Shown here one piece after another: positions 6,361-12,951 of a DNA stretch of 42,682 bases. The stretch's first letter is position 1. Each line of letters begins with the position of its first letter. Made by a program: the position numbers and the translations under genes. A model generated the notes under the pieces. The model was not told the origin of the DNA. It searched no databases and was given only the letters and a program-made list of their open reading frames with translations. Source of the DNA: Verrucomicrobiota bacterium (lineage in GTDB: Bacteria > Verrucomicrobiota > Verrucomicrobiia > Opitutales > UBA953); NCBI GenBank assembly GCA_016871725.1, contig VHCL01000011.1, positions 1 to 42,682 of the forward strand, written 5' to 3'.

Positions 6361-8244
6361 ATGAAATTGCTCCTATTTCTCGTGATTCCGATGCTGGTCG
6401 CCGCCCCGGTCCCGCCCGCGGAGACGCTCAAGCCCTTCGGCGCTGATTTCCCGAACTTGGATTCCTTTGCCGTGGGCGCCTGGTGGGACAAGAAGCCGCC
6501 GGCCAAAGGCAAGAAGGGTGGCGGTACGCCGCCGCCCACGATGCTGGTCGCCCGCGATCAGGTCATCGCTTTCGCGCTCTACACCCAGCAGGCGGGCGTC
6601 CTGAAGCTGACGGCTCAGCTCTACCCGCTTTATCCGGAGGAGGCGAAGGTCGCTCGGCTCGAGGTGAAGCGTGGCGACGCGTGGGTCGAGGTCGCCCAGG
6701 CGCCGGTGCGGTTCCCGGGCTGGAGCGCCCACTTCCGCGTCGAAGGCTGGGACGGTTCAAAGGATGTCGCCTATCGCGTGCGACATGGCGAGGCGGCGAA
6801 GTTCGAGGGACTCGTCCGACGCGACCCGGCCGACAAGCCGACCATCGTCGTCGCGAACATGTCCTGCAATTCAAGCCGCACGACCGGCGCCCGTCCGGAG
6901 ATCCTGGACAACCTTCTCCGCCAGGATCCCGACCTCCTGTTCTTCGCCGGCGACCAGACTTATCGTCATACCGAGCACACCGCCGGCTGGATCGAGTTCG
7001 GGCTGCAGTTCCGTGAGGTGATGAAGGACCGGCCGACGATCTGCATCCCCGACGACCATGACGTCGGGCACCCGAACCTCTGGGGCGAGGGCGGCAGGCA
7101 GTCCGTGCAGAAAGACAATTCTGACGGCGGCTACTACTATCCCGTGGCCTACGTGAACATGGTCCAGCGCCAGCAGGCCTGGCATCTGCCGGACGCCTTC
7201 GATCCGACGCCGGTCCAGCGGGGCATCTCGGTCTACTACACGCGCCTGAAGGTCGGTGGGATGGATTTCGCGATCCTGGAGGACCGTAAGTTCAAGTCCG
7301 GTCCCTTGGGCAAGATCCCTCAGCAGGGCCCGCGCCCCGATCACATCACGGACGAGAAGTATGATCCGAAGTCGATCGACGTCCCCGGCCTGCAGCTGCT
7401 GGGAGAGCGGCAGCTCAAGTTCCTCGCGGCATGGTCCGAGGACTGGGTCGGCGTCCGGCGCAAGGCCGTCCTGTCCGCCACCGCGTTCTGCGGAGCCGTC
7501 CACATGCACGGCAAGCGGGACGACCGCCTGCTCGCGGACCTGGATTGCAACGGCTGGCCGCAGTCCGGCCGCAACGAAGCCTTGCGGGCCTTGCGCCGCG
7601 TGCAGGCGGTCCACCTCTGCGGGGACCAGCATCTCGCCGTCACCGTCAAGCATGGCATCGAGGCTTTCGGCGACGGACCTTATTCGCTGACGAGCCCGGC
7701 GCTCGTGAACACGATCTACGGACGATGGTGGCATCCCAAGGACGAGAAGGCCGGCCCGAACGCCGTGGCCGGCAGTCCGTTGCCGTGGACGGGCGATTAC
7801 TTCGACGGACTCGGCAATCGGATGTCGGTCCTGGCCTACGCCAATCCGGGCGACATCCAGGACGAACGGCAGCGGGCCGACGGTTACGGCGTGGCCCGCT
7901 TCGACCTGAGGCAGGACAAGGTCACCTTCGAGTGCTGGCCGCGTTTCAGCGATGCCCGGAAGGGTGACAGCCAGCAGTTCCCCGGCTGGCCGCAGACCTT
8001 CGCGCTCGCCGACAACGATGGTCGCAGGCCGACCGGCTATCTGCCGGCCGTCGAGCTGCCTGCTGGTCCGGCGGTCGTGCAGGTCATCGCCGAGCAGACG
8101 GGCGAGACGATCTACGTCCGCCGCCTGCAGGGAGGAGCGGCCTTCGCTCCTCCGGTGTTCGCGCCGGGTAGATATACCGTGAAGGTCGGCGTCGATCGTC
8201 CGGACCAGCGCACCCTGAACGCGCTGGAACCCATCGCGCGTTAA
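6361..8244 (+). CDS. PhoD-like secreted metallophosphatase
   Basis: A 627-aa protein beginning at an ATG that opens a signal peptide ([16 protein letters not shown]); longer in-frame starts upstream would bury this signal. The catalytic core starts near residue 160: [20 protein letters not shown] (Asp198), [11 protein letters not shown] (Asp231, Asp232, His233, Asp234) and a later LCGDQHLAV metal-binding segment, all typical of the PhoD/PF09423-like calcineurin fold. It probably hydrolyses phosphomono- or diesters outside the cytoplasm. The N-terminal 150 residues look like a beta-sandwich preceding the catalytic domain, as in PhoD. Its stop codon overlaps that of the convergent sialidase-like gene (shared TTAA at 8241-8244). 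No Pho-box was recognised. Confidence 0.82.
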
Positions 8245-9365
8245 CGCTTCAGGAGGGCGTCCGTCTCGCTGAGCTTGAAGCGGACGCTCACCACGGAGTT
8301 CTGCTCGGGGCCGTCGGCGTATTTGACATACGTCGTGGCCACGACGGTGCCGTCGGGGAGGAGTTCGACGCCCGGATAGCCGCAGTCGCCCGCGCGCTTG
8401 CCGTAGTGATGCAGCAGCTTGACGCGATATTGTCCCGGCCGGCCGGACTTCAGGTCCGCATACGTACCGACCCAGGCGACGAAGTGGCCCCGGGTCGGGC
8501 TGTTGATGGCCTGATCGCGGAAGCACACGACCATGCGACCGTCCGTCGTGAAGACGCCGTTATGGCGGTCGCCCGTGAGGCCCCAGCTGGTGTCGACCGG
8601 CGTCGACCAGGTCGCGCCCTCGTCCTGACTGAACATCATCAGGCTGCGTCCCTTGTGGGAATTCTCGCGCAGCAGGCAGGCGAGCTCTTTGCCGTCGGGG
8701 GAGCGGAAGACGTAGGGTTCGCAGGGGTTCTTGCCGGCGACTTCGGCGACGATGCGCGGTTCGGACCAGGTGAAGCCGCCGTCGGCGGTGATCGTCTGGA
8801 GCGTGACCAGCGGAGCGCGGTCGGCGCCGCCCGGGCCGCGGTGATAAAGGCCGAGGGTGCGGCCGTCCTTGAGCCGGACGACGCTGCTGAAGGTCATCAC
8901 GCAGGGGAAGCCGAGGGGAGGCATTTCCTTCCAAGTCTTCCCCTCGTCCTCGCTCATGATGCTGGGCATGCCGGCGCCGCCGCGCTTGCCGAGGGAGGCG
9001 GAGAAGACCCAGAGGCGGGCTTTGCCGGCCGGGTCGGTGATGCGATAGATGCTCGGGCAGTTCTGGTGGGTCGCGAAGCCCTTAGGCAGCTGTGCGTCGA
9101 GGCGCGTCCAGGTCAGTCCGCCGTCATCGCTGCGGGCCATCGGGCCGGCTGAGCCGCCATGGTTGATGCACCAGACGGAGAAGATCGTGCGGTTGTCCGG
9201 CATCAGCAGGGTCGTCGGATGGCCTTGGTAGAGCGATGCCGTGCCGGCGCCGATGACCACCTGACGTTCCTTCTGAGCCGACAGGTCGACGATAGGCAGG
9301 TCGGGTTTATCTTCAGCCATGACCAAGCTAGCCAGGCAGAGCAGGGCGGGGAGCAGGGGGCGCAT
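8241..9365 (-). CDS. Secreted BNR-repeat exo-sialidase-like protein
   Basis: A 374-aa protein. The ATG at 9365 starts a signal peptide ([19 protein letters not shown]); codons further upstream in frame are not convincing. Four Asp boxes (SxDxGxxW type) are visible: [16 protein letters not shown], a TADGGFTW variant and SQDEGATW, the hallmark of the six-bladed sialidase propeller. Such proteins remove sialic acid or related sugars, or bind glycans, outside the cell. I did not identify the full set of sialidase catalytic residues (Arg triad, Tyr/Glu pair), so enzymatic sialidase activity is inference. It is convergent with the PhoD-like gene and overlaps it by 4 nt. Confidence 0.8.
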
Positions 9366-9448
9366 GACGACACTCTGTGAGAAGTCTTCTTTCCTGCCAA
9401 GCCCATTGGCCCGCTTGACCCCTGCGGTCGGGCCGGCAGGCTCTCTGT

Positions 9449-10165
9449 ATGGCTCGGTCGCCGGCACGTCAATGGCTCTGGTTCCTCTGCGCGTTCGTAG
9501 GGGCGGTCTTCGCTTTGCTTTTGCTCATCATCGTGCTGGAGCCGGTGGATGAAGCGGACGCGGCTCCTCCGCAGTTCGTGGAGCAGCGGGTCAAGGCTGA
9601 GGCCGGTGATGCGGTCGCCCGTTTCAAGATGGCGGGCTTTTACGCCCGAGGCGAAGGGGTGGCCCAGGATCTCGTCGAGGCGGCCAGGTGGCTGACGTTG
9701 GCGGCGGAGCAAGGCTATGCGCCCGCCCAGAACAACCTTGCGGTCTGCTACTCCACCGGCGCCGGCGTGCCCAAGGATCAGGCCAAGGCCATCGAGTGGA
9801 TCCGTAAGTCGGCCGACCAGGGTTATGCCCGGGCGCAATGTTATCTGGCCTTGTCTTACGCCAAGGGCGAAGGCGTCCCGCGGGATCAGGCGCAGGCCAT
9901 CGACTGGTTCCGAAAGTCCGCGGCGCAGGGCTTTCCGGACGCGCTGAACCATCTGGGGTATTGCCACAGTCAGGGAAGGGGCGTGCCCAAGGATGAGGCC
10001 GAAGCGTTCGCTTGTTGGTCCGTCGCGGCCCGTACGCACGAGGGTGCGGCCCGTAACCTCGAGCTCTTGGAAAAGAAGATCTCGGATCAGAACCGCCTGC
10101 GGGGCGGGGTCCGCCGCGACGAGCTGCTCCGGCAGATCGAGGCGACCAAGTCCAAGGGCTCCTGA
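9449..10165 (+). CDS. Membrane-anchored Sel1-repeat (TPR-like) protein
   Basis: A 238-aa protein with an N-terminal transmembrane helix (residues 9-30) and then four Sel1-like repeats of about 36 residues. The repeat marks are [24 protein letters not shown] and QGRGVPKD, each followed by a helix such as AIEWIRKSA. Sel1 repeats form alpha-solenoids used for protein-protein contacts. The helix orientation suggests the repeats face the periplasm, but a cytoplasmic location is possible. It stands alone between divergent and same-strand neighbours, so no partner can be named. Confidence 0.85.
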
Positions 10166-10226
10166 GCGGATTGAGATAATCTGGCGGGACATTTGCGGAC
10201 TTGGCGGCTTCCGCTAAGTTCAAGGC

Positions 10227-11432
10227 ATGCCTTCACCGCTGGACTTCCTCCCGACCCGTGCCGCGGCCTTGGCGCGTCTGGGGGAATTCCTTCCCGCTGC
10301 CGGGCGTTATGCGGCAGACCGTAACTTCGTGCGTCCCGGACATGAGAACATCTCTCGCCTATCCCCGTGGGTGCAGAAGCGCCTGCTGCTGGAAGAGGAA
10401 GTCGTCGCCGCGGCCCGCGCCCGTTGGTCCTTCGAGGCCGTGGAGAAGTTCGTGCAGGAGATCTACTGGCGGACCTATTGGAAGGGTTGGCTGGAGCATC
10501 GTCCTGAGGCCTGGTCGCGTTGGGTCCAAGCCGTGCCGCGGCTGCGCGATTCGCTGAGCGCCGGGCAAAGGTCGACTCTGGAGGCCGCCCTCGCCGGACG
10601 TACAGGTATCGCGGGCTTTGACGACTGGGCTCAGGAACTCGTGGCCACCGGCTACCTGCATAACCACGTTCGCATGTGGTTCGCCTCGATCTGGATCTTC
10701 ACGCTGAAACTCCCGTGGGAGCTCGGTGCCGCGTTCTTTTACGAACACCTGCTCGACGGGGATGTCGCGAGCAATACGCTCTCGTGGCGCTGGGTCGCCG
10801 GGCTGCAGACGCCGGGGAAGACCTATGTCGCTCGGGCGGACAATATCGCTCACTACACCAACGACCGGCACGTACCGCAGGCAGGCCAATTGGCCGGTGC
10901 CGCGTTTCCGATCACGGAGCCGGCCCTGCCGAAGATCGCGCCGTGGACGGAAGACCCCTTGTGGAGCAAGGCGGAGGAGGGTAGGGCGGGCCTCTGGGTT
11001 CACCCAGAAGACCTCGCCGTCGAACGCGGAGAGCTGTCCGGGGGCAAGTTTGTCGCGATTAACGCCACATGGCCCAAGCCTATGGCCAAGAAGGCCGGCT
11101 GGTCGGATGCCGTTGCCAACTGGACGCAGGCGGTTTTGCACGACGGCGCCTCACGGGCGGGTGCGCACTTCGGGGCTGACGTCTCCGCTGAGGCATCGGA
11201 CGAACTCGCCGCGACGCTGGTCGACTGGGCCCAGAAGCATCAGCTCAAGCGGGTCGTCGCTTATCGCCCGTTCGTCGGACCTTGGTTGGCCGAGGCTCTC
11301 GCCATCGAGTCCGCCCTCGCCCAGGCCGGCATCGCCATCACCTGGCGCCGACGGCCTTGGGATACTCGTCTCTTCCCGCACGCGACCCGCGGCTATTTCC
11401 CATTCTGGGAGAAGGTGACGGCTGCTGGATGA
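10227..11432 (+). CDS. Photolyase/cryptochrome-family FAD protein with apparently permuted domains
   Basis: A 401-aa protein. The photolyase FAD-binding helical domain is at the N-terminus (residues about 1-215): SRLSPWVQKRLL at 43-54, FVQEIYWRTYWKGW at 75-88, TGYLHNHVRMWFASIW at 141-156 and DGDVASNTLSWRWVAG at 177-192 correspond to the conserved motifs that bind FAD and DNA. In ordinary photolyases this domain follows an N-terminal alpha/beta antenna domain. Here nothing precedes it; residues about 252-401 instead look like a reduced alpha/beta domain (LWVHPEDLAVE as the first strand, LFPHATRGYFPFWEKV as its usual end). This suggests a circular permutation. DNA repair or blue-light sensing are both possible. 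The start has AAGG 5 nt upstream. It converges on the tRNA gene. Confidence 0.82.
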   Translation: MPSPLDFLPTRAAALARLGEFLPAAGRYAADRNFVRPGHENISRLSPWVQKRLLLEEEVVAAARARWSFEAVEKFVQEIYWRTYWKGWLEHRPEAWSRWVQAVPRLRDSLSAGQRSTLEAALAGRTGIAGFDDWAQELVATGYLHNHVRMWFASIWIFTLKLPWELGAAFFYEHLLDGDVASNTLSWRWVAGLQTPGKTYVARADNIAHYTNDRHVPQAGQLAGAAFPITEPALPKIAPWTEDPLWSKAEEGRAGLWVHPEDLAVERGELSGGKFVAINATWPKPMAKKAGWSDAVANWTQAVLHDGASRAGAHFGADVSAEASDELAATLVDWAQKHQLKRVVAYRPFVGPWLAEALAIESALAQAGIAITWRRRPWDTRLFPHATRGYFPFWEKVTAAG

Positions 11433-11439
11433 AAGTAAG

Positions 11440-11512
11440 TGGGCCCACCGGGATTTGAACCCAGAACCAAGGAATTATGAGTTCCGTGCTCTAACCGTTG
11501 AGCTATAGGCCC
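11440..11512 (-). tRNA. tRNA with CAT anticodon, probably tRNA-Ile2 (lysidine-type)
   Basis: The minus strand folds into a 73-nt cloverleaf: acceptor GGGCCTA/TGGGCCC with one G-U pair, D arm GCTC/GAGC, anticodon loop CTCATAA (anticodon CAT, complement at 11477-11479), T arm CTGGG/CCCGG with loop TTCAAAT, and discriminator A73. CCA is not encoded. CAT can be Met or Ile2; the C4-G69 and C5-G68 acceptor pairs and the CTTGGT after the anticodon stem resemble E. coli tRNA-Ile2, whose C34 is changed to lysidine by TilS. The first anticodon-stem pair is a C27-U43 mismatch. The gene lies 47 nt downstream of sulfatase 1 on the same strand and ends 7 nt from the photolyase stop. Confidence 0.85.
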
Positions 11513-11559: not shown

Positions 11560-12951
11560 TTACTTGGCGACGACGTCGATGAGCTGACTGCGGACCGGCG
11601 TGACGGTCGCGCGGTGCTGCTCGACGGCGGCCTGCAGGCGGGCGACGACGTCCGGATGGTCGGCGGAGATCTCGTGGGCTTCGGAGGGGTCGACGGAGAG
11701 GTTGAAGAGCAGCGGCTTGGCATGCTCGATCGGCTTGGGGTCGCCGTAGGAGCCTTGGGTGATGAAGTGGATCTTCCAGTCGCCGAGACGGGCGGCGTAG
11801 AGTTTCTCGCCGCGGTAGTAGCAGAACAGGCCGCGGTCGACGGCGCGTTCCTCGAGCAGGAGCGGGGAGAGGTCGGTGCCGTCCATCGGGCGGTCCGTCG
11901 GGGCCTGCGCGCCGGCGAGCTTCGCGACGGTCGGGTAGAGGTCGAGCATGGTGGCGACGTTGTCGGTCACGCCAGGCTTGATCTTGCCGGGCCACCAGGC
12001 GATGCCGGGGACGCGCATGCCGCCTTCCCAGGTGCTGCCCTTGCCGTCCTTGAGCAGGCCGGCGCTGCCGCCGGTCTCGGTGCCCATGAGCGTCCACGGG
12101 CCGTTATCGCTGGTGAAGAAGACCAGCGTGTTGTCGGCCACGCCGTTGGCCTTGAGTGCCTTGAGGACTTCGCCGACGTTCCAGTCGAGCTCGGCGAGCA
12201 CGTCGCCGTAGATGCCGCGCGGGCTCTTGCCCTTGAAGCGATCCGACGCGAAGAGCGGCGTGTGCGGGAACGTGTGCGGCAGGTAGAGGAAGAACGGCTT
12301 GTCCTTGTTCGCCCCGATGAACTTCACGGCCTCTTCCGCGTAGCGCTTCGTCAGCTGGGTCTGGTCGGTGCGCGGTTCGAGGAGCTCGCGGCCGCGGTAG
12401 AGGGCGGCGTTCCACCAGGCCGGATCCTGCGCGACGAGGGAGTTTGCCTTGGGCGGATTGCCCGGCGTCGGATTCATGTCGTTCGAGTGCATGAGGCCGA
12501 AGTGGAAATCGAAGCCGTGGTCGAGCGGGTGATGCTGCGGCAGGTTATTGGCCCAGACGCCGAGGTGCCACTTGCCGATGATGCCCGTGGCGTAGCCGGC
12601 AGACTTCAGCGCTTCGGCGAGGGTGACTTCGGACGCAGGCAAGCCGCCGGTGGAAATAGCGCGCAGAACGCGGTATTGGTTGTGGGCCATGCCGGAGCGG
12701 ACCGGGTAGCGCCCGGTCATCAGCGCGGCGCGGCTGGGCGTGCAGACTTCGGCGGCGGAGTAGAACTGCGTGAAGCGCAGGCCTTCGGCGGCCATGCGAT
12801 CCAAATTCGGCGTTCTGATGGTGGGGTGGCCGTAGCAGCCGAGATCGCCGTAACCGAGGTCGTCGGCCAGGATGATGACGATGTTCGGCTTCGGGGCGGC
12901 TTGGGCGGCGAGGGTGAGGGCCGTCAGCAGGGTAAGCAGCAGGGGTCGCAT
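11560..12951 (-). CDS. Secreted S1-family sulfatase with canonical CTPSR site (sulfatase 1)
   Basis: A 463-aa arylsulfatase-type protein with a signal peptide (MRPLLLTLLTALTLAAQA). The formylglycine site is CTPSR at residues 70-74, followed by AALMTGRYP. Metal-site residues are in ILADDLGYGDLG near 27-38 and FFTSDNGPW in the C-terminal half, with IIGKWHLG as another S1 landmark. The Cys type requires a formylglycine-generating enzyme or a radical-SAM maturase, neither of which is in this window. The substrate (sugar sulfate type) cannot be told. Its leader carries interleaved inverted repeats just before the ATG. It is divergent from the DUF3293 gene; the tRNA gene follows on the same strand. 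Confidence 0.92.
   Translation of the reverse strand: MRPLLLTLLTALTLAAQAAPKPNIVIILADDLGYGDLGCYGHPTIRTPNLDRMAAEGLRFTQFYSAAEVCTPSRAALMTGRYPVRSGMAHNQYRVLRAISTGGLPASEVTLAEALKSAGYATGIIGKWHLGVWANNLPQHHPLDHGFDFHFGLMHSNDMNPTPGNPPKANSLVAQDPAWWNAALYRGRELLEPRTDQTQLTKRYAEEAVKFIGANKDKPFFLYLPHTFPHTPLFASDRFKGKSPRGIYGDVLAELDWNVGEVLKALKANGVADNTLVFFTSDNGPWTLMGTETGGSAGLLKDGKGSTWEGGMRVPGIAWWPGKIKPGVTDNVATMLDLYPTVAKLAGAQAPTDRPMDGTDLSPLLLEERAVDRGLFCYYRGEKLYAARLGDWKIHFITQGSYGDPKPIEHAKPLLFNLSVDPSEAHEISADHPDVVARLQAAVEQHRATVTPVRSQLIDVVAK

Follow-up and report, generated by a model that had tools for sequence, protein, structure and literature searches.

An intact photolyase gene of inverted domain order in an Opitutae genome, with a predicted complete alpha/beta domain at the C-terminus of its product

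The window analyzed here is a stretch of 42,682 nucleotides from a Verrucomicrobiota genome (assembly GCA_016871725.1, contig VHCL01000011.1, positions 1 to 42,682), and the gene under study, at 10227-11432 on the forward strand, encodes a photolyase-family protein of 401 amino acids, hereafter the window protein. In contrast to classical photolyases and cryptochromes, this protein has no alpha/beta (antenna) domain N-terminal to the helical domain that binds flavin adenine dinucleotide (FAD). The original prediction for this gene held that its two domains stand in reversed order, and the analysis bears this out: the FAD domain occupies residues 1-230 and an alpha/beta domain lies at the C-terminus, a layout kept in all 79 aligned proteins. 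The gene very probably encodes a cyclobutane pyrimidine dimer (CPD) photolyase with inverted domain order, of the class called NewPHL or short photolyase (SPL). The features of the locus are:

10215-10217, forward strand: in-frame TAA stop, read from the sequence, 12 bases 5' of the ATG
10227-11432, forward strand: NewPHL/SPL-class photolyase gene (very probable assignment); open reading frame with ATG start, intact, 401 amino acids, FAD domain first and alpha/beta domain last
10227-10916, forward strand: N-terminal FAD-binding helical domain, residues 1-230 (PF03441 match, VIA match, invariant residues)
10917-10964, forward strand: inter-domain linker, about residues 231-246, without helix or strand in the model
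10965-11429, forward strand: C-terminal alpha/beta domain, residues 247-401 (predicted fold and profile comparison)

The open frame around the photolyase gene comprises 404 codons only and, with the TAA at its 5' side, this leaves no N-terminal extension or antenna domain in frame. The upstream neighbor on the same strand (9449-10165) encodes a Sel1-repeat protein, not an antenna domain, and in the 2.37-Mb genome to which the window belongs PF00875, the antenna-domain family, was absent apart from contig C122. The match on C122 belongs to a separate classical photolyase of 546 amino acids in ordinary domain order (L270:356-1993). The original prediction had left room for an antenna domain upstream, lost from the frame by a frameshift; the stop codon, the Sel1 gene and the restriction of PF00875 to C122 rule this out. 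The photolyase on C122 is the sole further photolyase found in this genome; many genomes of the same genus have an additional photolyase-type match of about 480 amino acids.

A Pfam scan of the window protein returned FAD_binding_7 (PF03441) alone, at residues 75-201 (E 6.8e-21). Its relatives in the PDB sequence set are photolyases and cryptochromes, whose C-terminal halves match the N-terminal half of the window protein: positions 177-385 of the Thermus photolyase 1iqr match residues 9-223 (E 9.7e-16), and superposition of residues 1-230 on 1iqr 169-415 aligned 217 residues with a VIA Z of 16.0 and a root-mean-square deviation (rmsd) of 3.2. The FAD domain starts near residue 1 in the window protein; in most classical rows its start is at about residue 200. 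Residues E78, W81, N146, R149, M150, W164, D177, D179, N183, W187 and W189 are invariant in all 79 proteins. In the sequence alignment, E78, W81, N146, M150 and D177 correspond to E274, W277, N341, M345 and D372 of the E. coli photolyase, D179, N183, W187 and W189 to its D374, N378, W382 and W384, and W164 to its W359; we take the roles of these E. coli residues to be contacts with the CPD and with FAD. The CPD-pocket residues that were checked (E78, W81, N146, M150 and W189) are thus all five invariant, and the Asn near FAD N5, which is N183 in the window protein, is likewise kept in 79/79. An excerpt of PMC12083526 describes this Asn as conserved in NewPHL. Because E. coli W306 aligns to D108, the window protein has a Trp dyad instead of a triad, and this dyad, W187 with W164, fits the 'mere Trp dyad' given for the NewPHL of Dinoroseobacter shibae in a passage of PMC8948257. 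The window protein has zero cysteines and therefore no iron-sulfur (Fe-S) cluster; across the alignment no column has Cys in more than 30 of the 79 rows, and a match to PF04244 (DPRP) was looked for in the window protein and not found.

It could be argued that the protein is a cryptochrome-like light sensor and not a repair enzyme, given that cryptochromes are found among both the sequence and the structure matches and that a photolyase core at about 30% identity is no proof of repair. The invariance of the five CPD-pocket residues argues for repair, as do the repair of CPDs in single-stranded DNA stated for published members in a passage of PMC13274461 and the presence of other photolyase genes beside 8 of the 80 related loci, and a sensor appears improbable on these grounds.

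The structure of the protein was predicted with AlphaFold2, with an input of 79 sequences (the window protein and 78 relatives), both for the whole chain and for the tail alone. The whole-chain model has a mean predicted local distance difference test score (pLDDT) of 95.2, with residues 241-250 averaging 70, and a predicted template modeling score (pTM) of 0.93, which suggests that the mutual placement of both domains is well defined in the model. Modeled alone, tail residues 247-401 gave a pLDDT of 94.0 and a pTM of 0.87, and Foldseek ranks 1-16 for this tail model, among solved structures, were all photolyases or cryptochromes. Tail positions 7-155 superposed on the N-terminal domain of 8ijy (2-157; VIA Z 12.1, rmsd 3.3, 142 residues), and tail positions 6-155 on residues 1-161 of E. 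coli photolyase (1dnp_A; VIA Z 11.9, rmsd 3.1, 145 residues). The photolyase matches cover the tail from about 6 to 155, with the last helices included. As modeled, the tail is a complete N-terminal alpha/beta (antenna) domain of photolyases, aligned over nearly its full length. The antenna-type identity proposed for the C-terminal third is therefore upheld by the superposition, while the qualifier that the domain exists 'in a reduced form' has to be dropped. Since the order of elements inside the tail domain is unchanged, it is whole domains that have exchanged places; the circular permutation that had been proposed holds in the sense of a whole-domain swap, cut at the inter-domain linker, and does not extend to the internal order of the elements.

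The profile comparison, made with hhalign as the equivalent of an HHpred run, also connects the tail to PF00875 domains. Against 29 same-phylum antenna domains, the tail profile, for which the program used 77 of the 79 rows, gave a probability of 81.4% one way and 45.9% the other way round. The controls gave 1.0% for the tail against universal stress proteins (USPs), 0.6% for the tail against response regulators, and 0.1% for the FAD half against 27 of the 29 antenna domains. Cyanobacterial Phr5 forms a bridge between the two sets: the tail matched Phr5 at 95.2 and 92.8%, Phr5 matched the antenna domains at 95.1 and 96.1%, and for Phr5 itself the PF00875 matches (E 1.1e-4 and 1.2e-3) fall short of the curated cut-off. 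The observed scores, 39.5 and 45.2, were never reached in 100 column shuffles, the highest of which gave 26.9 and 21.7. Phr5 also reaches 53% against USPs, over 37 columns, and the bridge is therefore less specific than the tail itself.

These comparisons bear on an alternative in which the C-terminal third would be a Rossmann-like or universal-stress-like domain unrelated to the antenna domain; the gene would then encode a truncated photolyase with a new partner, and there would have been no domain swap. USPs are indeed among the structural matches to the tail (7ji4, VIA Z 11.8; Foldseek rank 17), their fold being similar over tail residues 5-130, and PF04273 outscores PF00875 on some tails. 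Most USP matches, however, end near residue 130 of the 155-residue tail, whereas the photolyase matches reach 155, and the profile probabilities for USPs and response regulators stand far below those for the photolyase N-terminal domain and for Phr5. No unrelated fold emerged for residues 250-401, an outcome that had been kept in view from the start; the best solved matches are photolyase and cryptochrome N-terminal domains, and we consider an unrelated tail very unlikely.

Several results nevertheless weigh against a swapped antenna domain. Pfam does not detect the tail of the window protein, and in single-sequence scans PF00875 was found in only 3 of the 79 tails (best E 0.01), while the unrelated, phosphatase-like PF04273 was found in 6 of the 79 (best 7.2e-5). 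The tail profile searched against PDB sequences returned no photolyase, and its top match was BdcA/YjgI (E 0.0037). Conservation at a ligand edge of the tail was tested with an overall negative outcome: D262, G351, R376 and D379 lie in loops after strands, but such loops are on average no more conserved than the rest of the tail (4231 of 10000 random draws as high), for which reason no kept antenna site is claimed. A phosphatase-like tail was also considered and set aside, because the tail in its entirety can be superposed on photolyase domains and the window protein's own tail has no PF04273 match.

Relatives of the gene were collected by a pattern-based scan of genome contigs and tblastn, which gave at least 593, and the best 80 were taken; they come from Verrucomicrobiota, Alpha- and Gammaproteobacteria, Microbacteriaceae and others. 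The alignment of 79 consists of the window protein and 78 of these 80 loci, L031 and L035 being left out as cut by contig ends. All 79 share the layout with FAD domain first and alpha/beta domain last, which excludes an accident of sequencing or assembly. Full-length relatives within the genus are 72-89% identical. Among 57 near genomes, counting the window's own, copies that are full-length or nearly so occur in 8 at 72% identity or more, and two others have copies at 41-43%. One genome of the same genus has an open reading frame of 110 amino acids (L012:1498-1830) that retains only about 58 C-terminal-domain residues, at 74% identity, and is apparently a decaying copy. In a reversed-order relative of 441 residues (L174:919-2244), which stands beside an oxidoreductase-like open reading frame, the linker is long and the C-terminal domain divergent. 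In public records, plasmid-borne relatives bear no annotation beyond 'FAD-binding domain-containing protein'. Viral contigs, when searched, yielded no relative, and among phage records 9 matched, each only partially and within the FAD half, with none reaching 80% coverage.

The other photolyase genes mentioned above are adjacent or nearly so, and comprise 5 classical and 4 DPRP-like ones, L076 having both (the eight loci are L076, L052, L098, L091, L051, L096, L108 and L095). Such ordinary and DPRP-type neighbors of reversed-order genes suggest photorepair clusters. The window copy has no photolyase gene adjoining it among the neighbor genes scanned. A tRNA-Met (CAT) gene at 11439-11512 on the reverse strand starts 7 bases past the photolyase stop codon, and the region is flanked by genes for a BNR-repeat (sialidase-like) protein (8241-9467) and a sulfatase (11560-12951), both on the reverse strand.

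In cyanobacteria, 21 loci (L153-L173) have a Phr4-type gene with the FAD domain only, and at 12 of the 21 a Phr5 gene lies downstream on the same strand. At L169:1324-2679 and L168:1023-2223 the Phr4-type gene has Fe-S-type cysteines and is directly followed by the Phr5 gene for the alpha/beta domain. Four actinobacterial photolyases (L271:637-1890, L272:610-1821, L273:537-1796 and L275:1138-2916) have a cysteine cluster of the CxxC type and, at the C-terminus, a short domain like Phr5. Judged by length, layout and cysteines, these four are probably SPLs in the sense of Xu 2021, none of them being a named one. Their tails match Phr5 at 98.4%, and only weakly the PF00875 set (14.9 and 4.9%) and the NewPHL tails (30 and 18%); L274, which lacks a match to the cysteine pattern used, was left out of this comparison.

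The reading given for SPLs, that of an ancestral short photolyase that never had an alpha/beta domain, might in principle be carried over to the window gene, and the description of SPLs in a passage of PMC9498864 favors it. It is countered by the alpha/beta domain at the C-terminus of the window protein, by the Phr5-like tails of the Fe-S-type actinobacterial proteins and by the Phr5 genes downstream of Phr4-type genes, and it is hard to credit as an account of this gene.

The placement of the window protein as a NewPHL/SPL-class photolyase was examined in two trees of FAD domains. Tree 1 contained 29 NewPHL-type, 22 Phr4-type (L174 included) and 48 classical rows; all 29 NewPHL rows fell on one side of a branch supported at 100/96, and the reversed and classical rows were separated at 95/61 with the long-branch row L151 present. 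For tree 2, of 54 rows, L151 was removed, the four actinobacterial Fe-S SPL-like proteins were added and the sets were thinned, the classical set being 26 rows drawn at random from the 47 without L151, all of them FAD-domain-profile matches. Here reversed and classical rows were separated at 100/100, and the NewPHL group was supported at 99/97; tree 2 does not place the root, because its rows were not chosen to cover class II, DASH and FeS-BCP proteins. The window protein lies inside one NewPHL group with alphaproteobacterial members and a Phr7-like protein (L152). A further point on the adverse side is that the NewPHL rows include Roseobacter-type, Sphingomonadales and Phr7-type relatives, with no named, experimentally studied NewPHL (D. 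shibae, Methylobacterium mesophilicum) among them. In NewPHLs, Fe-S-type actinobacterial SPLs and phr4-phr5 pairs alike, the alpha/beta domain is on the C-terminal side, and the three make up one group.

The NewPHL class reportedly goes back to Emmerich et al. 2020 (NAR 48:12845) and the SPL class to Xu et al. 2021 (MBE 38:4505). Like the window protein, NewPHLs have about 400 amino acids, with the FAD domain first and a C-terminal 'Z-domain' last, and share the CPD residues, the Asn at FAD N5, the Trp dyad and the lack of Fe-S cysteines; the window copy differs in coming from an Opitutae (Verrucomicrobiota) genome, and its tail was computed here as a complete antenna-type alpha/beta domain. 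SPLs are likewise short and bacterial with the FAD domain first, and some members have Fe-S cluster cysteines, whereas in the window protein an alpha/beta domain is present at the C-terminus, only the N-terminal position being empty, and there is no cysteine. Class I CPD photolyases (E. coli PhrB, 1dnp; Thermus, 1iqr) have both domains, the same folds and the same catalytic residues, but in the window protein the domain order is reversed and the third tryptophan of the electron chain is absent. FeS-BCP or prokaryotic (6-4) photolyases have a DPRP (PF04244) N-terminal domain and four Fe-S cysteines, and the window protein has neither. Phr4/Phr5, Phr6 and Phr7 of picocyanobacteria share the reversed order, and Phr7, with N-terminal FAD domain and C-terminal Z-domain, is the nearest of these in layout; Phr4 and Phr5 are two adjacent genes, and Phr4 and Phr6 have Fe-S cysteines, whereas the window gene is fused and without cysteines. 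Haney et al. 2022 (PMC9426592) report reversed domain order in cyanobacterial photolyases and point to 2020 work for CPD repair in single-stranded DNA. In a 2026 paper (PMC13274461), NewPHLs or SPLs are treated as one class with inverted domain topology. The inverted class has been known since 2020, and the window gene is a further, Opitutae example and not a new kind of enzyme.

Membership of the window protein among the NewPHLs rests on architecture, residues and tree, and domain order, both folds and their completeness, the conserved catalytic residues and tree membership were all computed here. By analogy with published members, the protein would bind FAD, would repair CPDs, with which its residues are consistent, and may prefer single-stranded DNA. 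In such a mechanism, the N-terminal helical domain would bind FAD and take the UV dimer into its pocket, where the light-excited reduced flavin would split the dimer by electron transfer; the C-terminal alpha/beta domain would pack against the catalytic domain and may serve to close the FAD site, to hold an antenna pigment, or both.

With the window gene, the known inverted photolyase class gains a clean, intact member from an Opitutae genome. What may be new is the presence of a C-terminal alpha/beta domain in NewPHLs, Fe-S-type SPLs and phr4-phr5 pairs, although the SPL is defined as lacking an alpha/beta domain. SPLs have been put forward as the root of the photolyase/cryptochrome family, and passages of PMC9649867, PMC9498864 and PMC9178010 describe them as without this domain and as possible ancestors; the first of these papers also assigns an Fe-S cluster to the proposed SPL ancestor. 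It appears that short photolyases do have their 'missing' domain, on the opposite side. We give roughly even chances to the wider proposal that all 'short' photolyases are domain-swapped full photolyases, in which NewPHLs, Fe-S-type SPLs and phr4-phr5 pairs all go back to a single swap by which the antenna domain came to lie after the FAD domain, reduction following in the actinobacteria and splitting in the cyanobacteria. On this proposal there would be no ground left for arguing that the family descends from antenna-less SPLs, and an antenna pigment could still sit in the C-terminal domain. Should the domain really lie on that side, as it was found to do in three subgroups, the case for SPLs at the root would have to be reconsidered, and the swapped domain would be a testable antenna.
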